DNA of 64,000 nucleotides from Lysobacteraceae bacterium (GTDB lineage: Bacteria > Bdellovibrionota > UBA1018 > JAGTJX01). Location: NCBI GenBank assembly GCA_023657465.1, contig JAGTJX010000003.1, positions 437,889 to 501,888 on the forward strand. Direction: 5' to 3'. Below, piece after piece: positions 23,594 to 37,034 of the stretch. Numbering within the stretch: position 1 is the first letter of the stretch; the number at the start of each line of letters is the position of its first letter. The notes below the pieces were generated by a model. It was not told the DNA's origin, did no database searches, and saw nothing but the letters and a program-made list of their open reading frames with translations. The translations under genes were made by a program, and so were the position numbers.

Positions 23594-24340
23594 ATGGAAA
23601 ACGGTATGAACAACAATAGCAGCAACAACAAACCTAAGATCGTCGCCTCTATTATAGTGGTGTTGATCGCTATTGCTTCTATCTCCTTCTACATGAAGAA
23701 CCGTAACGGAAGCTCACCTGCTCAAGGCGAACAGAGCTCTGGAGAGAAGACCCTCGATGTTACTGACCAATCTAAGTTTACCCCTAGTGGAACCAGACAT
23801 TCAGGTGACGTAGCTCCGGGAGCTCCAGTCGCTAACGCTCCAATCGCAGAGGAACCCCCTTGCAAGATTGTTAAAATGAAACCAGTCGATGGAAAAGGTA
23901 CTTACAGAAAGAACCTCCTCATCCTCTCTGAATCTCAACTCAACACCAAATCCGTTTGTGTGAAAGTAGACGGCACACCCGTAAAGTTCTCTCTTTTTCA
24001 AAAGAAAGCTAATCAAATTCTGATCGCAGGAGTTAGTGGCGCAAAAGCAGAAATCCAAGTTCGTTATTGCCGTGACAAGAACCTCTGCAAAGATGACTGC
24101 AAAATTCCACGAGATGAATTCATGGATGCACTCGGTGCTTCTGATGACAGTGGCGATTCAAACGCACGTTGGGAAGACGGCAAAGAATCCGATACCGAAA
24201 AAAACGTAGCTAAACAAATGAATATGTTTAAAGAAGATTTAAAAGCGATTGAAGCTAAAGCGATAGCTTCGATGAGTAAATGGGATGCGAAAGATTCGCA
24301 AGCCGCTTGCACAGGCACCGGGAGTGTTGACCAAAAATGA
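23594..24340 (+). CDS. Membrane-anchored protein of unknown function, first gene of the Glt-like operon
   Basis: A 248-residue protein. An Asn/Ser-rich cytosolic tip (1-14) is followed by one transmembrane segment (about 15-33, IVASIIVVLIAIASISF) and a periplasmic remainder. Residues 90-160 look like a small beta-domain with paired Cys (CVKVDG, CRDKNLCKDDC), so disulphides are likely. The C-terminal 60 residues are charged and helical. No family recognised. AAAGGAAC gives a good ribosome binding site. The stop overlaps the start of the vWA lipoprotein gene (ATGA), so the two products probably work together at the envelope. Confidence 0.82.
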   Translation: MENGMNNNSSNNKPKIVASIIVVLIAIASISFYMKNRNGSSPAQGEQSSGEKTLDVTDQSKFTPSGTRHSGDVAPGAPVANAPIAEEPPCKIVKMKPVDGKGTYRKNLLILSESQLNTKSVCVKVDGTPVKFSLFQKKANQILIAGVSGAKAEIQVRYCRDKNLCKDDCKIPRDEFMDALGASDDSGDSNARWEDGKESDTEKNVAKQMNMFKEDLKAIEAKAIASMSKWDAKDSQAACTGTGSVDQK

Positions 24341-26031
24341 ATAAGAACTCATTCACTATCCAAAATTTAGCATTGATCACTCTTGCAGCTGCAGTCTCTG
24401 GCTGTACAGCTCAGGTTACGGGTTCAATTAAATTCAAAGCTCAACAGCAAAACTTCGCAGTTCAGCAAAAAGTGAATACTAAGATCGACCTTCTTTGGGT
24501 GATCGACAATTCTGCATCTATGGACTCTGCCCAAGATAAGCTTCGCCAAGGTCTCACTGGATTCGCTCAGAAGTATATGAAACCTTATTGGGATATCCGT
24601 ATCGGTGTTATCACAACGGACTCTTATATCGCCAATTCTGCTTTCAACAGCTACCTCAACACCACTATTCCAGGAACCACCAACTGGCAGTCCCCTTATG
24701 TTGCTTCACGTATTGCAACATGGACGAATCCTTCTTGGGCTCCTACATTAGTAGATGGAACAGGTCATTTCACTAATGGAATTAAATTCAATCAACTCTT
24801 CCCTCTTTGGGATTCTAACTATTCGAAACTCATTACAGGTAAGCACGATGGTCCGATTCAAGCTTTGTGCGTAGAATCACTACCTTACTTCATGAATGGT
24901 CCTACTCAATGTCAGATTCGCGATAATCCAGCGAATGCGAATTATGGAACAGGTACTTCAAACTGCCTCAATCCAGGATCAGGAAAATCAGCGATCAGTC
25001 AATGCGTAAATACTGTATCCAACGATTCTATCCGAAGCGGGAAGGCAATCATCTCCACTAAACCGCCTACTGGTACTCCAGGAGATTCTGCATGGGTAAA
25101 CTCTCTTGTGAATCAATTCATGATCAATGCCACTGCAGGTAGCGCAGGTCACGGATCTGAAAGAGGACTCGCTTCTCTCGGACAATTCATTACTGATAAC
25201 GAAGCTTCTGGATCACTCTCGTCTTTCTTCAGAGCAGATTCTGTACGCGGGATTATTTTCATCTCTGATGAAGAAGACCAATCGATGACTCTCCCAAGCC
25301 CTGTACCTAGCGGATTCACACCTTGGACTAACTATCGTTGTGATCAAGCTGGATTAGTAGCATTGAACCCAACTGCAAATATCACTGGATCTAATGGAGT
25401 GTGCTGCTCAGGCGGAAGCTGCTCTTACGGTACTGCAGGAACGACATGCACTGAGAAGACAGTAGATGGATTCACTTATACACCAAGCATCTGCCCAGTG
25501 GCAGCAAACCTCACTCCTGTATCTACTTTCAAAACTCAACTGGATAACTTCTTCAACACACTCGATGGATCAACCACGACTTCAAGCTACTTCATCGTGT
25601 CGATTGTCGCCCTTTCGGGTCAGACCATTCAAGACCTTCAGGCAGCACGTACGACAACTGATGCTGCTGTAGGCGCAACTAAGATGTTTGCTGTGGATAG
25701 AGCAGATCGTTACATCGCTTTAGGTGATGCTGTCGGAAACGGAAGTGTCGCTCTTGACATGGGAGCTTCAGACTATTCGCCTCTCTTAGATGCAATAGGA
25801 TCTACCCTTGTCTCTAAGAAAAGTACTTTTAAGTTAACCCGTCAAGCAACCGATAAAGAAGCCATGGTAGTGACGGTGGTACATGCTAATGGCACTTCAG
25901 ATGTGGTCCCAAGCTCGATTCTCCTCGTTTCTGGTAACACAGTAACGATTACAGATGAAGCTTTCGTTCTCAGTCTGGGTGACACTGATGTGATTGCCAT
26001 CAACTATCTACCAAGCCGTTTATTTAACTAA
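24337..26031 (+). CDS. Lipoprotein with a von Willebrand A-like domain
   Basis: A 564-residue lipoprotein: signal peptide with lipobox V-S-G-C (Cys about residue 23). A vWA-like domain begins at IDLLWVIDNSASMDSAQ, whose D-N-S-A-S fits the MIDAS D-x-S-x-S metal site, and continues through IIFISDEEDQS. A Cys-rich insertion (about residues 345-395) holds six or more Cys, for example GVCCSGGSCSYG, which suggests disulphide cross-linking. vWA lipoproteins usually mediate adhesion or assembly at the outer membrane. Sharing an operon with TolQ/TolR-like proteins suggests it is the surface or outer-membrane-facing component of the machine; this is inference. Confidence 0.87.
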   Translation: MNKNSFTIQNLALITLAAAVSGCTAQVTGSIKFKAQQQNFAVQQKVNTKIDLLWVIDNSASMDSAQDKLRQGLTGFAQKYMKPYWDIRIGVITTDSYIANSAFNSYLNTTIPGTTNWQSPYVASRIATWTNPSWAPTLVDGTGHFTNGIKFNQLFPLWDSNYSKLITGKHDGPIQALCVESLPYFMNGPTQCQIRDNPANANYGTGTSNCLNPGSGKSAISQCVNTVSNDSIRSGKAIISTKPPTGTPGDSAWVNSLVNQFMINATAGSAGHGSERGLASLGQFITDNEASGSLSSFFRADSVRGIIFISDEEDQSMTLPSPVPSGFTPWTNYRCDQAGLVALNPTANITGSNGVCCSGGSCSYGTAGTTCTEKTVDGFTYTPSICPVAANLTPVSTFKTQLDNFFNTLDGSTTTSSYFIVSIVALSGQTIQDLQAARTTTDAAVGATKMFAVDRADRYIALGDAVGNGSVALDMGASDYSPLLDAIGSTLVSKKSTFKLTRQATDKEAMVVTVVHANGTSDVVPSSILLVSGNTVTITDEAFVLSLGDTDVIAINYLPSRLFN

Positions 26032-26051
26032 TTGAACGAGGAGAGTAGATC

Positions 26052-26744
26052 ATGGGTTTCTTAGAATTTTTAAAACATAATTTCATGCACGCGTTTCCAA
26101 TCCTGCTCTGCGGAGCATTCGCGATTGCAATCGCATTCGAACGATACTTGGCACTCTATAAGGTATTGCCAATCAAAGACTCAAAAGGATTCTTCGATCG
26201 CATCAATGACTTGATCCTAGCAGGTCGTCTCCATGAAGCCGTTGGAGCATGCGATACATTGAAAGATAAGCCGGTTGGTCGTATTGTGAGAATTGCTCTC
26301 CAACGCGCTCACCTTCCTGATGAATCGATCCAAAGTGGTATCGAAATGGTCATGGGTGATGCAGTAGGAGAAATCACTAAACGCACTAGCTTCTTAGCAA
26401 CGTTAGCTAACGTAACTACTCTCTTAGGTCTCTTCGGAACTGTTGCAGGACTGATCGCTTCTTTCGAAGCGGTCGGTAGCGCTGATCCACAACAGAAATC
26501 TGCTCTTCTTGCAGCAGGTATCGCGACTGCGATGAACGCTACAATGATGGGTCTTGCTGTTGCGATTCCTTGTATGGTGGCATTCAGTGTGCTTACGAAC
26601 CGAGCGAACCGCATGGTTGCAGAATTAGAAGAAGCTGCTGTACGTACACTCGACCTTCTTAAGCTGAGATACTTCGGTGATGAAGCTAAAGGTGTGACCA
26701 ACGTTACTTCAATCAACGATAAGTCAGATAAGAAAGCAGCGTAA
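26052..26744 (+). CDS. MotA/TolQ/ExbB-family proton channel (AglR-like)
   Basis: A 230-residue protein with three membrane segments (about 12-32, 125-147 and 165-190) and a cytoplasmic loop between the first and second. The conserved family block TLANVTTLLGLFGTVAGLIASF followed by the AAGIATAMNATMMGLAVAIP stretch is present, with the Thr/Pro positions that line the proton path. It should form a pentamer in the inner membrane around TolR-type dimers and use the proton motive force. Two TolR-like genes follow at 4-base gap and 4-base overlap. One TolQ with two TolR paralogues is the arrangement of the myxobacterial AglR-AglQ-AglS gliding motor. Confidence 0.95.
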   Translation: MGFLEFLKHNFMHAFPILLCGAFAIAIAFERYLALYKVLPIKDSKGFFDRINDLILAGRLHEAVGACDTLKDKPVGRIVRIALQRAHLPDESIQSGIEMVMGDAVGEITKRTSFLATLANVTTLLGLFGTVAGLIASFEAVGSADPQQKSALLAAGIATAMNATMMGLAVAIPCMVAFSVLTNRANRMVAELEEAAVRTLDLLKLRYFGDEAKGVTNVTSINDKSDKKAA

Positions 26745-26748
26745 TTAA

Positions 26749-27216
26749 ATGAATGTCTCTAGTGGCGGCTCTGGAAAACCGGGCTCAGCATCACAAGACT
26801 TCGACCTGAACCTAGCACCGATCATCGACTGCTTCACGGTTCTTGTGACATTCTTACTTGCTTCAAGTGCATTTCTTTCGATTGGGATTATGGATGCAGG
26901 TGTATCAGCATCTTCTCCGTCGCAATCACAAACAGCTCCTCCTCCCATTCAGATTAAAATCGAAATCAAATCTGGAATGAAATTAGCACTGAGCACCACT
27001 GGCAAGGCCACACGTAGCAATACGTTCACCGCTAAAGAAGGCAAATACGACTTCGAAGCAATCAAAAAAGAACTCACAGGTCTTAAAGGTTCCTTTCCAA
27101 CAGTCGATGCAGTCACTCTCTCTGCAGATGATGGAATAGAATACCGCGATGTGATCGATGCGATGGAAGTCATACGCAAGACTCAGCCCGTAGTCATGCT
27201 AGGAGGATTCCAATGA
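26749..27216 (+). CDS. TolR/ExbD-like motor protein 1
   Basis: A 155-residue protein with one N-terminal membrane segment (residues 22-42). The essential proton-carrying Asp is present in LAPIIDCFTVLVTFLL (D27). A periplasmic domain of the ExbD type follows, ending in DAMEVIRKTQPVVMLGG, in the usual position of the I-D-x-L-K-x-x-G signature. A Gly/Ser-rich cytosolic tip precedes the membrane. It is expected to pair with the TolQ-like channel just upstream and with TolR 2. Confidence 0.9.
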   Translation: MNVSSGGSGKPGSASQDFDLNLAPIIDCFTVLVTFLLASSAFLSIGIMDAGVSASSPSQSQTAPPPIQIKIEIKSGMKLALSTTGKATRSNTFTAKEGKYDFEAIKKELTGLKGSFPTVDAVTLSADDGIEYRDVIDAMEVIRKTQPVVMLGGFQ

Positions 27217-27722
27217 AGAAGAAGGGATTATTTAAGAAACGCGCTCGTGCTTCAGATGAAATGTCACTCCAGATCACTTCGATGGCAGATATTTTCACTA
27301 TTCTACTCGTGTTCCTGCTGAAGAGTGCTTCAACCAGTGCTGTGAACATCACTCCTGGTGCAGGTGTCACTCTTCCAGCTTCCACTGCAGAAAGCGCAAA
27401 CATCGAAGCACTTCGTATAGAAATCTCTGAGAACGCAGTTACCGTAGAGAATGAACCTGTACTAAAACTAGAGAAGTTCACAGTCGATCCGAAGGACTCA
27501 ACACCTGAAGGTGGATCAAAAATTTTATCTTCAAAACTAGAAATCAACCGTAAACGTCAGCTTCTCATTGCGAAGTCCAACACTGACGTCAAAGTCGATT
27601 CGAAAGTAATCATTATCGCTGATCAACACACACCCTACTCGACCATCAAGCGCGTATTGGCATCTGCAGCAGTACAAGGATATACCGATTACAAACTAGC
27701 AGTGGTGAATAAGAACCAATGA
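27213..27722 (+). CDS. TolR/ExbD-like motor protein 2
   Basis: A 169-residue paralogue starting within the last four bases of the previous gene (ATGA). The proton-carrying Asp lies in SMADIFTILLVFLL (D26) within a single membrane helix. The periplasmic part ends ADQHTPYSTIKRVLASAAVQGYTDYKLAVV, which matches the ExbD signature well. A basic cytosolic N-terminus (KKKGLFKKRAR) follows the positive-inside rule. The pair with TolR 1 suggests a heterodimeric stator rod as in AglQ/AglS. Confidence 0.93.
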   Translation: MKKKGLFKKRARASDEMSLQITSMADIFTILLVFLLKSASTSAVNITPGAGVTLPASTAESANIEALRIEISENAVTVENEPVLKLEKFTVDPKDSTPEGGSKILSSKLEINRKRQLLIAKSNTDVKVDSKVIIIADQHTPYSTIKRVLASAAVQGYTDYKLAVVNKNQ

Positions 27723-27729
27723 AATAACT

Positions 27730-30700
27730 ATGAAAAAACACCTTTGGGTTTTGATCCTACTGATCCTCCCCAAGGCAGTACCAGCGGATGACTTCCAAGT
27801 CTCTAAGCTATCCGATGAAAAACGTGAATCTTATGACCGATCCGTAGACCTAGTCGCTCTCGGATCTCAGAAGCACGCCATCCAAACCCTACAAGGACTC
27901 ATCAAGAAACACAAAGGTCGTACACAAGAAATTCTACTTGAGTTGAAGCTCGGTGAAGCCTATCAGCAAGCAGCTTACCTTGAATTCAGAATTCAAAAGG
28001 GGGTTCGTAAGGCCACAAGTGTGGTGAAATATCACCAAGACACCATTCGCACTCTCTCGGATGTCATTGCTCGAGCTCCGAACTTGCCAGAAATCGATCA
28101 AGCTTACGCTCTCCGTGGTAAGAGCTATGAAGAAATCGATGACAAACCTCATGCTAAGAAAGATTATCTCTATCTTGTGAAGAACTTTCCTGACCATCCT
28201 TCCACTTCACCTGCTTACATGTCCCTTGCTGATTTTGCCATTGTAGAAAACAATCACGATGAAGCTCTAACTTATCTTAAAGCACTTGAGAAACGAGACT
28301 ATGATCCTCTCTATCCCTTCGCTCTCTTTAAGATGGCTTGGTCGTATTACAATCTTAAGAACGTGCCCACATCACTCGCTTATTTAGAGAAGCATTCTGA
28401 GTACTATTTGAAAAAAATTGAGTCTTCAAAAGTACCCTCACCTTCTGACGAAGCGCTGAGGGAAAGTAGCTTAGCGGATATGGCTCTTTTCTTCTTCGAA
28501 GGCTACGAGTCCAAGGCTCCTGGTTACGGAACCGAGGACGCTTACAGGTACTTTAGTAAACGAAACGCAGGCAGTGTCTTCGGACGTATGAGTGTAAGAT
28601 TTGCCAAGCTCCTCCGAGCTCACAAGCATTCACAAGGATTAGAAGAGTGGAAGAATATCTATCTCGCGAAAGAGTACGATCGTCCAGAGACGCTTGAGAT
28701 CCTTACCATTCAATTCGACGATTATGTGAATCAGAATAGTTTTGAAAAAGTAGGTGCCACATCCAAGGACATGATTTCGCTTTACTTGAAAAACAAAAAA
28801 CTCATGCAAGGCGAAGTGCTCTCGAAGACTCAGAAAATCATTCTTGATACAGCTCAGAAGTATCAAAACCTGACGTTGAAAAATAAAAACGCGTCCGAGA
28901 GCGAAGAACTGAAGATACTCACCCATACTCTTGCTACACTCTATGACTCATTCACGAAGATGACTGAAGATAGTGATCCTAGAATCCCACGAGTGCATTA
29001 TAACTTGGCTGAAACCTTATTCGAGATCAAAAGCTTCGATGAATCGACTGTTCACTACCGCTGGATCGTAGACCGAGGTCAAGTGAAGGACTCGATTCCT
29101 ATTGATGATGCGAGTTTAAAGTCGATCTCGGCTCGTTATGAAAGTTTGAAATCTAAAGACCTCGTGAAACTTGAAATCAAAGCAAAGAAATATCAAGGCG
29201 ATAGTGAACCCAGTCAGTCGGGCGAATTCCGTGAATGGGTGAAGTGGATCGACTGGCATCTAGATAAGTACGGACACAAGGACGAAGGAGTCTCTCAGTT
29301 TTTGTATGAAGCGAATCGTAACCTCTACTTACTGAAAGCTTCAGATCCTGTGCTGACTCGTCTCAAAACATTTGCAATGAAGCACCCGACATCAAAGTAC
29401 GCGATCCCTCAGGCTACACTTACACTTGACACGGCAATTCTCTCTGAACAATGGGAGCGTGCGTGGCTCCTCACTCAAGACTTTGTTGACGTAGATGCCT
29501 GGAAGAAGACGGACTTCTATAAGCTCTTAATTCAAACCGGATCCAAAAGTATCTTCAAACTGACCGAAGCTGACTTCGAGAAGAACAAACATGTCGATGT
29601 ACTTGCACACTATAAACTCTACACCAAGAAGTTCTCTGACGATGGCCTTCTCCCTCAAATGATTCTCTTCGCTGCCAAGTCTGCACTCGCACTCAATGAT
29701 GAATCCTCAGGTACAGATCATTTATCGAACCTCATCGAGAAACAATCTAAGTCTAAGTTCGTTGCAGAGGCACTTCTTCTTCGCTCTAAGATCCGCCAAG
29801 AGAAGGAAGACTTCGTAGGGGCTGGGAAGGACTGGATCTCGTTCTTAAGCTTGGACGAAAAACTCAAATCTGGACTTAAATTCAAAACAGACGAAATCTT
29901 AAAACGTGCCTTCTTATTCGCCACACTTTCCAACACTCTTAAAGATCGATTCAAAGAAATTCAAACAGCTAAACTCTGTGAGCCTTCAGACCACCGTGAG
30001 CTTTGCGAACACTACGAAGCCTATCTCGCTGTGACCGAGCCTTCACTCTATCCCAAGCAGAAGTGTTCTGAGATGGCTAAGAACGAAGAAATCGAAGCCC
30101 CTACTCGCGGCCTCTGGGCTCTTGCAGCTCTCAAGTACTCCAAAGAAATGAATATCGATGAGATTCACTCATTCGTCAGGATCGTCGGCTCGAAGTTTGA
30201 GAAGAATGAAGCGGATGTACAGCTCTCACTATTCAAAGTTCTCAAGCAATACGTGATTCAATCTCTCGTTCGTGGTCGTGAATCACTCAACAAGGACTAC
30301 GCACTCAAAGAAGATGCAAACAAGATCATCAAATCAATCCAAAGACGCGTGAAAGCCATGCAACGTCACGAGGAGACCCAAGCATCACTCATGAAGCTTT
30401 CTTCATTCGGTCTTAGAGCCTATGTGTTTAATGATACTTCTATCATGTACGAAGACTTCACCAATGCACTTCGGAACTACCCTATGCCTGCAGACATGAA
30501 GCAGGAAGAAATAGACGAATTCCAGAAGGCATTCCAAGACATCCTCTTTCCATTCGAAGAGAAAGTTCAGGCGATTCGAATGAAAGCGTTTGAACTTGCA
30601 GCTCAGAAAGCAGTTGATGAGCCCACATTCATTGCCGTAGCTGAAGGCTACTTCAAGGACAACCCAAGCCAAGCTAAAACCTTGGGAAATGCTTTCACCA

Positions 30701-31176
30701 AGGGATTCAGAGTTCCGCTCACTCTCGACACTTTCCGTGACGAGACATTCTCTCCTCAATGGAAATCTGCTTATGAGAAGGGCCATACGAGACTCATGCT
30801 CTATCTTCTTCCGCGCGAGAAATCTCCTGTCGCAAAAGTTCTTACATTGGAATCAATTGGACTCACAAGCGAAGCACTCATTGAACTTGAAAAAATCAAA
30901 AATCAGAATGATCAGATGATCGTACTCACTCACCACTTCGCGACTCTCAATCAGCGTAGAGTGAAGAGCGCTTCACAAGTCATCGTTGATGAACTCACGA
31001 GCCAAGCCACTCCACCTAAGATCAATGAGCAGATCGCTTTCATTGTTTATTACACCGCAACTCACTGGGCTCCTTTTACACTCACAGAAAACATACGAGA
31101 TAAACTGGGCGCTAAAGCCCGAGGTGTCGATCACCGAGAAGCTCGAGATTGGATGCGCAATGGTCAGAAGAAATAA
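27730..31176 (+). CDS. Very large periplasmic TPR protein (Glt-machine scaffold candidate)
   Basis: An 1148-residue exported protein: signal peptide of about 20 residues (LILLILPKAVPA before DD) and then helical repeats. TPR-type patterns are readable, for example AYALRGKSYEEIDDKPHAKKDYLYLVKNFPDHP, LADFAIVENNHDEALTYLKAL and the repeats near 430-460 (ARIPRVHYNLAETLFEIKSF-like). Other parts are helical without clear repeats. Large periplasmic TPR proteins such as GltI/AgmK span or scaffold the Glt complex in Myxococcus; this protein is much shorter than GltI. It follows the TolR genes by seven bases and is likely in contact with the rotor. I cannot assign a one-to-one orthologue. Confidence 0.85.
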   Translation: MKKHLWVLILLILPKAVPADDFQVSKLSDEKRESYDRSVDLVALGSQKHAIQTLQGLIKKHKGRTQEILLELKLGEAYQQAAYLEFRIQKGVRKATSVVKYHQDTIRTLSDVIARAPNLPEIDQAYALRGKSYEEIDDKPHAKKDYLYLVKNFPDHPSTSPAYMSLADFAIVENNHDEALTYLKALEKRDYDPLYPFALFKMAWSYYNLKNVPTSLAYLEKHSEYYLKKIESSKVPSPSDEALRESSLADMALFFFEGYESKAPGYGTEDAYRYFSKRNAGSVFGRMSVRFAKLLRAHKHSQGLEEWKNIYLAKEYDRPETLEILTIQFDDYVNQNSFEKVGATSKDMISLYLKNKKLMQGEVLSKTQKIILDTAQKYQNLTLKNKNASESEELKILTHTLATLYDSFTKMTEDSDPRIPRVHYNLAETLFEIKSFDESTVHYRWIVDRGQVKDSIPIDDASLKSISARYESLKSKDLVKLEIKAKKYQGDSEPSQSGEFREWVKWIDWHLDKYGHKDEGVSQFLYEANRNLYLLKASDPVLTRLKTFAMKHPTSKYAIPQATLTLDTAILSEQWERAWLLTQDFVDVDAWKKTDFYKLLIQTGSKSIFKLTEADFEKNKHVDVLAHYKLYTKKFSDDGLLPQMILFAAKSALALNDESSGTDHLSNLIEKQSKSKFVAEALLLRSKIRQEKEDFVGAGKDWISFLSLDEKLKSGLKFKTDEILKRAFLFATLSNTLKDRFKEIQTAKLCEPSDHRELCEHYEAYLAVTEPSLYPKQKCSEMAKNEEIEAPTRGLWALAALKYSKEMNIDEIHSFVRIVGSKFEKNEADVQLSLFKVLKQYVIQSLVRGRESLNKDYALKEDANKIIKSIQRRVKAMQRHEETQASLMKLSSFGLRAYVFNDTSIMYEDFTNALRNYPMPADMKQEEIDEFQKAFQDILFPFEEKVQAIRMKAFELAAQKAVDEPTFIAVAEGYFKDNPSQAKTLGNAFTKGFRVPLTLDTFRDETFSPQWKSAYEKGHTRLMLYLLPREKSPVAKVLTLESIGLTSEALIELEKIKNQNDQMIVLTHHFATLNQRRVKSASQVIVDELTSQATPPKINEQIAFIVYYTATHWAPFTLTENIRDKLGAKARGVDHREARDWMRNGQKK

Positions 31177-31279
31177 CCTTGTCACTTCAGACACTCCTTT
31201 AAATTCGAATACCAACAATTATTTGCATTTATTCACATTGTTTAGTATTATTAACATTAAAGGCAAAAGGTTGAATTTT

Positions 31280-31540
31280 ATGGATAAAAACAGTGCTCAA
31301 TTGACTGCTCTCATCGTGTTTATGAGCTTATTCGTGATGTTTGAGGCCTACGCTGGTTCCAAGCGCGAGAAAGTCATCGCGTTTGATGATGACCTAGTCG
31401 AAGGCATGAACAAGCGACCGCTCGATTCCCTTCAGCAACTAGGTTCAGCAAACAAAAACAGAAGATCACATTTGTACCGTAAACGAGGCAGTTACCCCAC
31501 CGAAACCAGAATCACTCTCCAAGAAATGAGTTGGATGTAA
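31280..31540 (+). CDS. Small membrane protein in the Glt-like operon
   Basis: An 86-residue protein with one membrane segment or uncleaved signal (about residues 8-25, LTALIVFMSLFVMFEAYA) and a basic, Arg-rich tail. A-Y-A-G could also be a signal peptidase site. It starts 103 bases after the TPR gene and its stop overlaps the next start (TAATG). The AT-rich gap could carry an internal promoter, but no pair of boxes is convincing. No family recognised. Position and coupling suggest a component or assembly factor of the adjacent AgmX-like protein. Confidence 0.7.
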   Translation: MDKNSAQLTALIVFMSLFVMFEAYAGSKREKVIAFDDDLVEGMNKRPLDSLQQLGSANKNRRSHLYRKRGSYPTETRITLQEMSWM

Positions 31541-32694
31541 TGAGTAGTTTAAGAAAAGTAATCATCGAATGGAAACGTGGAGACACAAAACAGTTTCGTC
31601 ACTGGGACGGACATGCTCCTATTTTTATTTCTCACCCTGTGAGATTCATTCTGGAGTCTACCGACAACGGCGCTCGTATTCGTGATTTGAAATCTAATAC
31701 CTTTCATGAAAAAACTTGGGCTAACTTAAAATCAAATTCAAACCTCATGAGCGATGGTGGATTCAGCATTGATTTGAAACCGATCTATAACGAAGTCAGG
31801 TTCACTGCCGCAGAATTAAAACCTCTGACGGTTCTCGATGGCTCGAATACAGCAGCCGAACTTGCTGAAGCATTTAAGAAATCTCTGATCGCTGCCATGG
31901 CACTCCTTGCACTCATCGCAGGAGTCAGTGTGATCTGGGGCAATAAAGAAGAAGTGAAAGAAGAAGAATTGATCCCAGTCAAAGTTGCACAACTTGTATT
32001 AAAAGCCGCACCAAAGTCTGACACCACGAGAGCTGCTCCTGCAGGAGAATCTGCTCCCGCGGGGAGCGAACGCAAAGACCCAAGTGTCGTGACTGCAATG
32101 AGATCCAAAGCACTTCAGTCTTCTGTTCAAGGCTTACTCAAAGGTGGAATGTCTAAGTTACTCGCAGACTCAAGAGCAATGATGAGCACGGGAGCCAACT
32201 CCATTAATGCAGCAGCAGTTGCAGCTTCTGGCTCAGCTATCAGCGTCGACGCTGACAAAACTCGCGGAGCCGTCCAAGTGGGTGCACTAGAAGGTAATGG
32301 TAACGGCACCAACTATTCTAAAGGTGGAAAAGTCGGAGTCAAAGGCCAGGGCGAAGCATTCGTTTCTCTTGATATCGGCAACTCAAGCGTTGAAGAAGGT
32401 TTGACGAAAGACGAAGTAGGAAAAGTCATTCACGCTCACATGAGCGAAGTTCGCTATTGTTATGAGACTGCAATGATTCGTAATCCAAGCGTCGAAGGCA
32501 AGCTCATGATTGACTTCGTGATCGGTGGTAACGGCAGAGTGAAAACTGCTTCACCGAAGGAATCCTCACTCAAGGATCCTCAGCTCGACGATTGTATCGT
32601 GCGTAGACTCTCGAAATGGGAATTCCCTCATCCAAAAGGCGGAATCGACGTAGCTGTTAGCTATCCGTTCATCTTTAAAAGCTTAGGAAGGTAA
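31540..32694 (+). CDS. AgmX/PglI-family trans-envelope protein with TonB-like C-terminus
   Basis: Started at the ATG on the upstream stop (384 residues). Residues 1-100 form a cytosolic beta-rich region that may be a divergent FHA domain (weak). One membrane helix lies at about 116-134 (SLIAAMALLALIAGVSVIWG), followed by an Ala/Ser/Lys-rich periplasmic linker to about residue 280. The final 100 residues are the AgmX/PglI C-terminal domain: HAHMSEVRYCYETAMIRNPSVEGK, IGGNGRVKTAS, CIVRRLSKWEFPHP. This TonB-like domain is diagnostic of GltG/GltJ gliding proteins, which reach from cytoplasm to outer membrane. It is placed between the motor genes and the outer-membrane barrel, consistent with linking them. 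Confidence 0.93.
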   Translation: MSSLRKVIIEWKRGDTKQFRHWDGHAPIFISHPVRFILESTDNGARIRDLKSNTFHEKTWANLKSNSNLMSDGGFSIDLKPIYNEVRFTAAELKPLTVLDGSNTAAELAEAFKKSLIAAMALLALIAGVSVIWGNKEEVKEEELIPVKVAQLVLKAAPKSDTTRAAPAGESAPAGSERKDPSVVTAMRSKALQSSVQGLLKGGMSKLLADSRAMMSTGANSINAAAVAASGSAISVDADKTRGAVQVGALEGNGNGTNYSKGGKVGVKGQGEAFVSLDIGNSSVEEGLTKDEVGKVIHAHMSEVRYCYETAMIRNPSVEGKLMIDFVIGGNGRVKTASPKESSLKDPQLDDCIVRRLSKWEFPHPKGGIDVAVSYPFIFKSLGR

Positions 32695-32697
32695 CTA

Positions 32698-33444
32698 ATG
32701 AACATGATCTGGCTACTCCTCATCACCAGCCTCGCACATGCAGATGATCCACAGGCAGTGGACGTGGAATCTATTAAGCAGCGTTACTGGGCACAAGGTG
32801 AGCAGGCTGAATTGGGCGTTGTTCAAAACCGTACTTATTCAAAGGCTCGTAAACTCACACTCGGGCTCACTTATGGAACCACGAGCAGCGACCCTTTTCT
32901 TGCCATCACTCAGCTTGGCGGCTCGTTCACCTATCATCTGTCTGAATACATCGGTGTAGGAGTTGTCGGAATGGGATTTTTCACCGGTAAGTCTGGTGCA
33001 CTCACAGAATTCGAAAGATGGTCATTCGCTACTGCAAACACTGTAGCTCCGTTTAACTACATCGGTGGCGAAGTCTCAGCAAGTTTGCTTTACGGTAAGC
33101 TCAGCGTGCTTGGCAAATCGATCATCTATTACGACATGTACATCCTAGGTGGTGCTGGACGCGTGAACAAAGAGGGAGGCATTAGCTTTGCCTACCATGC
33201 AGGTATCGGTCAGAGGTTCTTCCTATCGAAACACTGGTCACTCAAGATCGATTACAAACTCTTAAGTTACAACGAAAACATCATTGAAAAAATCAATCCA
33301 GCCACGCAAGGATCTATTGCAGGTAACAGACAAAACTTTTCTCACACCATTAACTTGGGTGTAGACTTCTTATTCGATGTAAATGAAATTTTTAGTAAGA
33401 AACCCAAAATCAATCCTGAAGGAGGAGAAGTAGGGAAACCATGA
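32698..33444 (+). CDS. Outer-membrane beta-barrel protein (Glt-type OMBB)
   Basis: A 248-residue protein with a short signal peptide (ending A-H-A before DDPQAV). It matches the outer membrane beta-barrel domain described for myxobacteria and relatives: KQRYWAQGEQAELGVVQNRTYSKARKLTLG at the start is characteristic, followed by alternating hydrophobic strands rich in Gly and aromatics. In Myxococcus the homologous GltA, GltB and GltH barrels form the outer-membrane end of the gliding complex. It starts three bases after the AgmX-like gene, with AGGAAGGT before it. The barrel is small, probably eight or so strands. Confidence 0.9.
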   Translation: MNMIWLLLITSLAHADDPQAVDVESIKQRYWAQGEQAELGVVQNRTYSKARKLTLGLTYGTTSSDPFLAITQLGGSFTYHLSEYIGVGVVGMGFFTGKSGALTEFERWSFATANTVAPFNYIGGEVSASLLYGKLSVLGKSIIYYDMYILGGAGRVNKEGGISFAYHAGIGQRFFLSKHWSLKIDYKLLSYNENIIEKINPATQGSIAGNRQNFSHTINLGVDFLFDVNEIFSKKPKINPEGGEVGKP

Positions 33445-35222
33445 TGTCTCTTCTTCTTCTTTTTGCACTCCCTGGCAAGATTTACGCTGCAGAGGAATTC
33501 TACTCACATGCAGAGAGCCCTTGTACACTCTCTGAGAGCTGGAAGTTTGGAGAAGCGCTCGAACCGGAATTCGTACAATCCTTCGAAGTCGGCCTCAAAA
33601 ACAAACTCTCACCCGTTCAAAGTTTCTCTGAAGCTATTGCTTACAGAAAAATGGGTGGTAGCGACGAAGCAAGATCATTTGCAGAATACTGGATTTCTAA
33701 GTCACTCCACAGAGCAGGACTCACTCACATTGCTCAATTCGGATGGACTGTGATTGCAGCCAGAGAAGTCAATCCTCGCACTGAAGGCATTCAAAGAGCC
33801 TCTCTCGAATGCTTACTCGTGGTGAGAGACAAGAATCCTACAATCGAAATCCCACAACAAATATTCGATCGTCTGAAAGATTACCCCCCCTCGCCTACTC
33901 GCTCGCGTACAGCAGGTGTATGGGCAAGACAAATCATCGCTTCCCCATCAAGCAATCAAAACCTTGAAGAAGTGATGAAGCTCATCACACCGAATAGCGA
34001 GGAATTCCAACTCGTGTCTGGAATGTCTGAACTTGCAAAGAAGTCCTATTCACAAGCCACGATCAAACTCAAAGCGTTCCTAGCCAACAAGAAGCTTCCT
34101 GAGCACCTCGATCGATTCAAAGAATCTGCAAGCATCCTTCTCTCACGCGCATATTACACAACAGGTAAGTATCAAGACGCCGTTCACGAACTTAAGAAAA
34201 TCAGCCGTAGCTCCAATGAACTCGCTCAATCACTGACTGAACTTGCCTGGGCACACCTGAAAGCCGAAAATTACACTGATGCTGTAGGCACTGGAATCTC
34301 ACTTCAATCTGCAGGCATGAAGCGCACCTTCTCTCCTGAAGGCCTCATGGTCATGTCCATGGCATTAAACGAGCTCTGTCAGTATCCAGATGCAATCAAG
34401 GCAATCTCTCTTTATAAGAAGCAATACGAGAAAGCGTTTAAGTGGCTAGAGAAAAACCATAACGAGAACTTGAACTGGTATCAATTAGCTCTCGAATTCT
34501 TACAGAAGAAATCAGAGATTCCGCCTAACGTGGTCACTGAGTGGATTCGTGGACCTGGATTCATTACCAGACAAGAAGAAATCAATCTCCTCATTAAGGA
34601 AAAGGAATTCGCAGCCAAACTTCAGAAATCTGGCGCTGCTGAGCTCAACGACATGGGGACTCAAATTCTCATTCACATTCAAAAAATCAGACCCAAAGTC
34701 ATCTCTACTCTAGAAACACTGAAAGCAGACGAAACTCTGCCTGAAGGACTGAGACGTGAACTGAATTCTCTCCGTGAAGAGATCAATCACTACGAGAGAT
34801 TACGAAAAGGCGCAGGTCCTTGGAAGAAAATCTTAGCCAATCACATGAAGCGTGCACCTCGGATTCAAGAGAAACTCGTGCGCGAGATCAACGACCAAAT
34901 GGCAGATAAGACTAAGCGCATGTTCACTATCTTAGATGAGATCACTGATAACCTTCAGCTCATTGAAGTGGAAATCTATAGTGGTGCGTCTCAAGACATC
35001 GTCTGGCAGAACGCTCATCCGGATTACAAAGGAAAAGCTAAACAAATCGATGATCAAAACCAGAGTAAGAAAACTTCTACCGATTGGAACTGGGGCAAAG
35101 TCGAGGGCGGCTTAAGCGGTCAGGGTGAAGTTTGGGAAGATGAAGTGGGTTCATTCAAAGCTGACGTCGTGAACAATTGCGCAAGCAAAGAAAAGTACAT
35201 GCAGATCAGGGCACAAAACTAG
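33441..35222 (+). CDS. Secreted TPR-repeat protein of the Glt-like operon
   Basis: A 593-residue exported helical-repeat protein. The signal peptide is short (to about residue 17, G-K-I-Y-A before AEEF). TPR-like units are visible at about 195-290: LLSRAYYTTGKYQDAVHELKKI and LTELAWAHLKAENYTDAVGTG. A coiled-coil stretch (about 400-470, LETLKADETLPEGLRRELNSLREEI) and a Gly/Trp-rich C-terminus follow. It overlaps the barrel gene by four bases (ATGATG), so it is co-translated with it. A GltE/GltC-like periplasmic role is the best guess; sequence alone cannot decide. Confidence 0.84.
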   Translation: MMSLLLLFALPGKIYAAEEFYSHAESPCTLSESWKFGEALEPEFVQSFEVGLKNKLSPVQSFSEAIAYRKMGGSDEARSFAEYWISKSLHRAGLTHIAQFGWTVIAAREVNPRTEGIQRASLECLLVVRDKNPTIEIPQQIFDRLKDYPPSPTRSRTAGVWARQIIASPSSNQNLEEVMKLITPNSEEFQLVSGMSELAKKSYSQATIKLKAFLANKKLPEHLDRFKESASILLSRAYYTTGKYQDAVHELKKISRSSNELAQSLTELAWAHLKAENYTDAVGTGISLQSAGMKRTFSPEGLMVMSMALNELCQYPDAIKAISLYKKQYEKAFKWLEKNHNENLNWYQLALEFLQKKSEIPPNVVTEWIRGPGFITRQEEINLLIKEKEFAAKLQKSGAAELNDMGTQILIHIQKIRPKVISTLETLKADETLPEGLRRELNSLREEINHYERLRKGAGPWKKILANHMKRAPRIQEKLVREINDQMADKTKRMFTILDEITDNLQLIEVEIYSGASQDIVWQNAHPDYKGKAKQIDDQNQSKKTSTDWNWGKVEGGLSGQGEVWEDEVGSFKADVVNNCASKEKYMQIRAQN

Positions 35223-35233
35223 GAGAACGATTT

Positions 35234-35827
35234 ATGGCAAAGAATATTTACTTAGCTAAGAATGGAAAAATCACAGGCCCGATCACCATGGGTGACTACG
35301 ACAATTTGAAACTCAGTGGTCAGATCGAGCAGTTCTTCTGGATCTGGCACGATGAGATGAAGCAGTGGATTCCGCTCGATCCTCCGCCTGCACCGATCCA
35401 TTCGTTTGGAGATGGCGCAAAACACGAGCCTCTGACAGCGAAAAAATCAGATCGCTCTGAACACAAAGAAGAACCTGCACATCCTGCGATTGCCGCCGCT
35501 CAAGCTGCAGCAGCGCAAGTCATCCCGATCAAGACTCAAGTGAAGTTCGGATCGATGAAGGGAATCGAAGTCCTTTGCCATGACTTCAGAAACATCGTAC
35601 AAGGTTCAATCAATGAACCCACTCAGTTGGGGTTCACTCTTCTCACTGAGAAGGACTCTCATCCACCTAAACTCGGTGGCCAAGGGAAGGTGATTCTAAA
35701 TCTACTGAACAAGGATAACGGCGAGATGATCACCGTTCCTGCTGAGATCACAGGCGTACAACGCACGGGCGAAGCATGGAGCTACCAAATGCGCTGGGGC
35801 GAACTACCCGCGCATTTTTTTAAGTAA
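35234..35827 (+). CDS. GYF-like and possible PilZ-like cytosolic protein
   Basis: Started at the ATG after AGGAGAACG (197 residues). The N-terminal 60 residues resemble a GYF_2-type domain: NIYLAKNGKITGPITMGDYDNLKLSGQI followed by FFWIWHDEMKQWIPL; such domains bind Pro-rich peptides. An Ala-rich linker follows. The C-terminal 100 residues (VKFGSMKGIEVL to the end) have the strand pattern of a PilZ-like barrel, but the RxxxR and [D/N]xSxxG c-di-GMP motifs are not visible, so nucleotide binding is not supported. In Myxococcus a GYF domain belongs to GltJ; here it seems to be a separate protein, last in the operon, converging with the MFS gene (8-base overlap). Confidence 0.75.
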   Translation: MAKNIYLAKNGKITGPITMGDYDNLKLSGQIEQFFWIWHDEMKQWIPLDPPPAPIHSFGDGAKHEPLTAKKSDRSEHKEEPAHPAIAAAQAAAAQVIPIKTQVKFGSMKGIEVLCHDFRNIVQGSINEPTQLGFTLLTEKDSHPPKLGGQGKVILNLLNKDNGEMITVPAEITGVQRTGEAWSYQMRWGELPAHFFK

Positions 35828-37034
35828 CTTTTCGCTGAGAACGAACTAATCTAAACGCCACATAAGTCCAGATCACGAAGCACACAAGCGCCACACTGCC
35901 GTACCAATTCGAGAGGGTGAATCCTAAATATCCCAGCACTGCAAATCCTACAGAGCCCACACCCTTGGCAGTCCTGTAACCAATCACATCGATCCAGCCC
36001 TTCGTGCGATAACGGACATCAAAAGGAAGAGCGATGAAGAGAATCTCCTTCGATGAGCGATAGAGCGAGTAATCCAGTGACTTAAACAATCCAAAGAGTA
36101 AACTCACAGAGAGCAAAGTTCCCGTTTGCCAGGCAATCACAGCAAAACCTATTTGGACAAGTGGCACAAGAAGCTGCACCACCGGTGGAGAAATCCTTCT
36201 CAACAAAAACGGTGCCAACGCCATTTGAAAAAGCATCGAGCCGATATTCATGATGGCGTAGAAGTTTCCAGAATAAGCCGTCTGAGTGTCGGTATTAGGA
36301 AAAGAAGAATGAAGTTTTTCTTGAAAGTGCAATCCTGTTGTCGTGGATACGAGCTGAGCGATGAACGAGATCAGAAACAAATACCTGAGCACTTGATACT
36401 GCTCAAAATATTGAAACCCAGTCGTGTGACTTACATTTTCTTTTTTAAGCTCAGTCACGACAATGCGAGTCTCATTCTTCCTGTAACAGAGATTCATGAA
36501 CCAAATCGTAGGCAAGAATGTGAGAGCACCGAGATTGAGCATTGCAAGCGTCCCCCACTTGACCGCAAGCGCGCCGACCATGAAACCCGCACCGATTGAA
36601 CCAATCGAAGTGAGAGCTGTGAACCACGCGTTCACACTCTTCGCTTCTTCTTCATTAATAATGGAATCCAGCAGCGACCACATTTGCTCGAGTACGATGA
36701 CAATGTATGTCTCGCGAAAAAGGAAAAGGAGGCCCGTGGCCCAACCCCAGCCCACATGAATCATTTCTTCCAAGAGAAAGGTACCCACACCACTTGCTAA
36801 CGCAGTGAGTGAGAACGTACGTCTTGGACCAAACCGAGTGAGAATTCGACCGTAAAGATATAATAAACTAAAACTAAATACAGGCAACATCACCATGAGG
36901 TACGGAGTTGCAGAAGGTGAATAGGCTGCTTGAAAAAGGCTTACTGACGGACTGCGTATAAACTCATAGCCCGCTACTAAAAAAAAACATGAAATAAACA
37001 GTGGCCAGAGCCTAGAAAATAGCACCGAATCCAC
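35820..37034 (-). CDS. MFS-like / NTT-like permease
   Basis: A 404-residue integral membrane protein with about 11-12 hydrophobic helices. The motif LYGRILTRFGPRRTF after helix 2 fits the MFS D-R-x-G-R-R loop. The middle stretch LEQMWSLLDSIINEEEAKSVNAWFTALTSIGSIGAGFMVG is reminiscent of the ATP/ADP-translocase (NTT) group, which is found in parasites and predators such as Bdellovibrio, but I cannot separate this from a generic MFS assignment. The gene is divergent from the PhoD-like gene with a 54-base gap and converges with the operon to its left. Confidence 0.85.
   Translation of the reverse strand: MDSVLFSRLWPLFISCFFLVAGYEFIRSPSVSLFQAAYSPSATPYLMVMLPVFSFSLLYLYGRILTRFGPRRTFSLTALASGVGTFLLEEMIHVGWGWATGLLFLFRETYIVIVLEQMWSLLDSIINEEEAKSVNAWFTALTSIGSIGAGFMVGALAVKWGTLAMLNLGALTFLPTIWFMNLCYRKNETRIVVTELKKENVSHTTGFQYFEQYQVLRYLFLISFIAQLVSTTTGLHFQEKLHSSFPNTDTQTAYSGNFYAIMNIGSMLFQMALAPFLLRRISPPVVQLLVPLVQIGFAVIAWQTGTLLSVSLLFGLFKSLDYSLYRSSKEILFIALPFDVRYRTKGWIDVIGYRTAKGVGSVGFAVLGYLGFTLSNWYGSVALVCFVIWTYVAFRLVRSQRKVT

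Follow-up and report, generated by a model that had tools for sequence, protein, structure and literature searches.

The gliding machinery of Myxococcus xanthus includes two vWA lipoproteins, CglB and CglD, as well as CglF, which is the same protein as GltF (PMC4488436), and CglB serves as an adhesin (PMC13104615). Bdellovibrio bacteriovorus has four gliding operons, one of which carries the PilZ gene Bd1482 at its 5' end (PMC3271064), and the aglQ gene bd1480 and the vWA gene bd3099 are named, surface-induced genes of its gliding clusters (PMC9140294). Bdellovibrio gliding clusters with vWA and PilZ genes have been published (PMC9140294, PMC3271064), and the tie between a vWA lipoprotein and an Agl-Glt motor is not new (PMC4488436, PMC13104615, PMC9140294, PMC3271064). 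Here we describe an operon within a 64,000-nucleotide stretch of DNA, analysed as a whole and hereafter called the window, that probably encodes the Agl-Glt trans-envelope gliding machine in its Bdellovibrionota form, equipped with a MIDAS adhesin at the cell surface.

Organization of the operon

Positions 23594-35827 of the window hold eleven reading frames (A-K), all of them open, running in one direction on the forward strand, and tightly packed. Three gene pairs (A/B, D/E, and I/J) share 4 bases (ATGA) and G/H a single base, and the remaining junctions are gaps of 3-20 bases, except for F/G, where the gap is 103 bp. Starts were set or revised for the 86-aa gene G (31280), the AgmX-like gene H (31540), and the GYF gene K (35234, not 35177). 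A first-pass annotation had called this an eleven-gene operon of Glt/Agl type, a description borne out by the co-directional reading frames and by matches to GltG, GltC, OMP_myx_plus, MotA_ExbB, and ExbD. The two couplings that it proposed, of an anchored gene to a vWA gene by ATGA and of an 86-residue gene to the AgmX-like gene, correspond to the A/B and G/H overlaps. Scans of the window for non-coding RNAs and tRNAs found none, and promoter and terminator patterns occurred no more often than in shuffled sequence.

A membrane transporter gene, convergent with the operon, occupies 35820-37034 on the reverse strand. Its product scored 24.5 as a TLC ATP/ADP transporter, above the Pfam cut-off of 21, and just below the cut-off as an MFS transporter. 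Intracellular parasites are a known source of ATP/ADP carriers.

Motor, linker, barrel, and TPR proteins

The one TolQ and two TolR subunits noted at first pass were recovered by profile search. Gene C (26052..26744) encodes a TolQ/AglQ-type proton-channel subunit, identified by MotA_ExbB (PF01618, 1e-25) and by its place in the tree described below, while D (26749..27216) and E (27213..27722) encode AglR/S-like subunits of the TolR/ExbD type (PF02472, 1.8e-13 and 1.7e-13, respectively). The product of H (31540..32694) is a GltG-like trans-periplasmic linker (2e-33; below the equivalog cut-off of 650) whose TonB-like C-terminal domain exceeded the cut-off of the AgmX/PglI model (NF033768, 5.7e-32, 109.7 bits; cut-off 40), confirming the AgmX/PglI assignment against Glt profiles. 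Gene I (32698..33444) encodes the predicted outer-membrane beta-barrel, of GltA/B type (TIGR04565, 84.8 bits; cut-off 60), and J (33441..35222) a GltC-like TPR protein (8.8e-16; under the equivalog cut-off). The 86-aa product of G (31280..31540), formerly put forward as new, is a CglF/GltF homologue: alone it matched CglF weakly (0.013), and 13 of the 17 members of its family matched that model, at best with 1.4e-5 and under the equivalog cut-off. Since the GltC, GltG, CglF, and CglD scores all lie under their equivalog cut-offs, these proteins may not be strict one-to-one equivalents of those of Myxococcus.

Gene F (27730..31176) encodes a 1148-aa exported TPR protein with TPR and YbgF-like matches; profile searches with GltD/E models returned no match to it, and its position suggests that it may stand in for GltD/GltE. 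Apart from a cross-match between GltG and GltJ, none of the eleven proteins matched GltI, GltJ, GltK, or GltH, whose absence from Bdellovibrio is published (PMC3169522).

The TolQ/TolR and YbgF-like matches might also point to a Tol-Pal-like system of envelope maintenance. However, the operon gave no TolB or Pal match, yielding GltG and GltC instead, and the AglQ tree placed the window in a clade (99/97) with members of its taxonomic order and of family f14. The sister of this clade is the Bdellovibrio cluster that begins with vWA and PilZ genes (93/92), and TolQ/Tol-Pal and ExbB lie apart. A separate TolQ in the window's genome fell beside the TolQ of Bdellovibrio and not among the gliding-type motors (100/99 split). 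Together with the tree, this largely refutes a Tol-Pal role, which we regard as scarcely tenable. The genome also contains a second TolQ-TolR-TolR motor with no glt genes nearby (L007:8407-10272; G000:C2:919-921 kb), the TolQ of which grouped with motors of Bacteriovoracaceae clusters (96/55).

The window's genome encodes the gliding regulator MglA (66% identity, G000:C4:548601), found by a search with a relative's MglA; an earlier Pfam search (PF00025) had suggested that it was missing, a result overturned by the direct search. In Bdellovibrio, MglA controls reversals and is dispensable for gliding itself (PMC3983030).

The vWA lipoprotein

Gene B (24337..26031) encodes a 564-aa vWA lipoprotein related to the Bdellovibrio MIDAS adhesins and to CglD. 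The first-pass description of a vWA MIDAS lipoprotein was upheld by an alignment of 18 members, in which the lipobox cysteine (Cys23), the DxSxS residues of the MIDAS (D57, S59, and S61), and D311 are invariant. All 18 matched the CglD model as well as that of the Bdellovibrio MIDAS adhesins, with scores for B far under the equivalog cut-offs. B is a putative surface-exposed adhesin. A lipobox and a MIDAS vWA domain are common to B, CglB/CglD, Bd0875, and Bd1483, and B is the longer protein.

An adhesin of this kind might fasten onto prey as the motor draws the cell in, making the operon a prey-invasion machine and not one for surface gliding. The MIDAS relative Bd0875 does act at the predator-prey interface (PMC11003981), and the stage of predation at which Bdellovibrio gliding clusters peak varies among them (PMC12546842). 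However, prey invasion was normal after deletion of Bd1483, a lipobox MIDAS protein that by its number fits the orthologous cluster (PMC11003981), and we consider an invasion machine very unlikely.

The undescribed first gene

Gene A (23594..24340) is the sole undescribed gene of the operon. Its product is predicted to comprise an N-terminal transmembrane helix (residues 13-36), a disordered linker, a beta domain, and a C-terminal helix (AlphaFold2 pLDDT 74), with six conserved cysteines at positions 90, 122, 159, 165, 169, and 239. No Pfam family matched it, with only scattered single-member matches among its homologues, and a Foldseek search of the PDB returned nothing below E 0.001; the weak top rows had low TM-scores and were dismissed as chance matches. 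Since some homologues (L042, L044, L049, L057, and L182) have a lipoprotein-like start in place of the transmembrane helix, the protein appears to be tethered to the envelope either way.

Of 143 relatives searched, 38 carry A, 36 in the window's taxonomic order and two in family f14, and it was found in none of the other phylum members among them. When two search tables were compared by eye, 30 of the 43 matches to A had a vWA match no more than 3 kb away. In family f5 (L184:11600-13514 and L185:6439-8378), a glycosyltransferase-like gene precedes A in the usual place of the vWA gene. Protein A is most likely a lineage-specific accessory, working as a partner of the vWA protein or of the motor base.

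The GYF-PilZ protein

Gene K (35234..35827) encodes a predicted cytosolic protein that the first-pass annotation had described as GYF-like. The GYF domain is indeed present, with a second half that had been overlooked, i.e., a divergent PilZ-fold domain: its top fold matches were PilZ domains of the PDB (probability 1.00, E 4e-3), homologues of K matched Pfam PilZ (1.4e-12 for that of Bdellovibrio), and the PilZ gene of the Bdellovibrio operon is homologous to it. The RxxxR ligand motif is kept in the Bdellovibrio homologues, which probably sense a cyclic dinucleotide, and is absent from the window's K and from the same-order relatives checked (L043, L044, and L083). Judging by this motif, the sensing site looks to have been lost in the window's lineage.

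Conservation and gene order

Homologues of the vWA gene were found in 80 of the 143 relatives; close homologues came from about thirty genomes, almost all belonging to the window's taxonomic order. Several genera (L043, L044, L048, L050, and L056) have the complete gene order A-B-C-D-E-F-G-H-I-J-K, and others have it without K or as far as the contig end. Since this gene order recurs in other genera of the taxonomic order, with vWA proteins about 44-58% identical to that of the window, its conservation is far beyond chance. Family f14 (L177 and L178) has A and B after K, at the opposite end of the operon; the vWA gene lies away from the motor in L182-L185; and G011 and G018 keep the motor and A with no adjacent vWA gene. 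The first-pass reading had been staked on the presence of the vWA and anchored genes in orthologous operons, and since most of these keep both, it survives this check. Contigs labelled Nitrosovibrio and Klebsiella pneumoniae (L117, L118, and L121) also bear vWA genes of the B family, with an entire Agl-Glt operon in L117; these labels look wrong, and the contigs look to be from Bdellovibrionota.

Two loci, L049:3242-10941 (G030) and L057:4155-11907 (G022), contain half-operon paralogues, A-B-C-D-E-F, without the GltF, GltG, barrel, GltC, and K genes. Downstream of each, by eye, are genes resembling those for glycogen-debranching enzyme, glycosyltransferase, and GH57 proteins, and in these loci the motor perhaps serves another job.

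The adjacency of such half-operons, lacking GltG and GltC, to carbohydrate-enzyme-like genes is consistent with a different use of the whole system, in which Agl-Glt parts move surface polymer or envelope material, as the Nfs machinery does for the spore coat, the vWA protein is an internal clamp, and the cell itself does not move. Core Agl/Glt complexes do occur in non-gliding bacteria, and Nfs, the paralogue that builds the spore coat, comprises the closest Glt homologues in Myxococcus (PMC3169522). However, the window has the full set, including CglF, GltC, the barrel, and the MIDAS lipoprotein, its motor has a gliding-type cluster of Bdellovibrio as its sister group, and its genome has MglA. 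We therefore consider polymer transport unlikely and favor a gliding machine.

Discussion

In the gliding machine that we propose, the TolQ-TolR-TolR proton motor (C-D-E) in the inner membrane would move the GltG-like linker H, which would pass the force through the periplasm, by way of GltF (G) and the TPR proteins (F and J), to the barrel I. The barrel complex would hold the lipid-anchored MIDAS adhesin B at the cell surface, where B could grip either another cell or the substrate, and movement of the complex would then drive the cell forward. The cytosolic K may dock on the motor as a regulatory input, and A may act as an accessory to either the motor base or the vWA protein. A bolder proposal is that A is a dedicated gliding-adhesion part, a disulfide-rich domain on a tether, serving to load, latch, or expose the vWA adhesin, and that loss of the PilZ site frees the machine from cyclic-dinucleotide control; we offer this tentatively, as a rather doubtful possibility.

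The first-pass annotation had seen novelty in the membrane-anchored protein and in the vWA lipoprotein at the head of the operon. The former stands, since family A is undescribed, while the latter is a relative of the Bdellovibrio MIDAS adhesins and CglD, and B. bacteriovorus has an Agl-Glt operon that opens with a vWA gene. What is new, besides family A, is that the window's lineage has lost the PilZ ligand motif and that a single type of Agl-Glt cluster is accompanied phylum-wide by vWA and GYF-PilZ genes. The conserved operon provides a testable set, in which a single motor is joined throughout the phylum by a single MIDAS lipoprotein and a single GYF-PilZ input, and it reveals differences between lineages, with gene A gained and the PilZ motif lost.

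The orthologous cluster of B. bacteriovorus strain kdesi (L122) has the order vWA, GYF-PilZ, AglQ, two TolR, large TPR, 82-aa CglF-like, GltG, and barrel. G115, a complete genome of the same phylum, has four such clusters, three of them with a vWA gene (L168, L170, and L171), and its cluster L074 pairs with the kdesi cluster in the tree. By gene order and numbering, Bd1483 (MIDAS), Bd1482 (PilZ), and Bd1480 (aglQ) of strain HD100 most likely belong to the same cluster as L122 and L170, so that three separate published observations, of a motor, a PilZ protein, and a MIDAS adhesin, would be united in one likely machine. All of the kdesi parts, as well as GltC, are common to this cluster (L122 and L170) and the window, with vWA as the first of the common genes. 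In contrast to the window, the Bdellovibrio cluster is without gene A, its PilZ protein keeps RxxxR, its GYF-PilZ gene is second instead of last, and its vWA protein has ~350 aa instead of 564.

In comparison with the Agl-Glt machine of M. xanthus, GltI and a complete GltJ were not seen among the eleven proteins of the window, and the vWA gene is physically linked to the motor. In contrast, for vWA loci of the named set that bear the label Myxococcota, no AglQ-type motor gene was found within the fetched flanks (≤10 kb on each side), and one locus (L132) had a GltG-like gene. Common to both machines are an AglQ-type motor with two TolR-type subunits, GltG, GltC, CglF/GltF, an outer-membrane barrel, and a vWA lipoprotein (CglB/CglD in M. 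xanthus), parts that M. xanthus encodes in several clusters and the window in one operon, together with a stand-alone GYF-PilZ protein and gene A.
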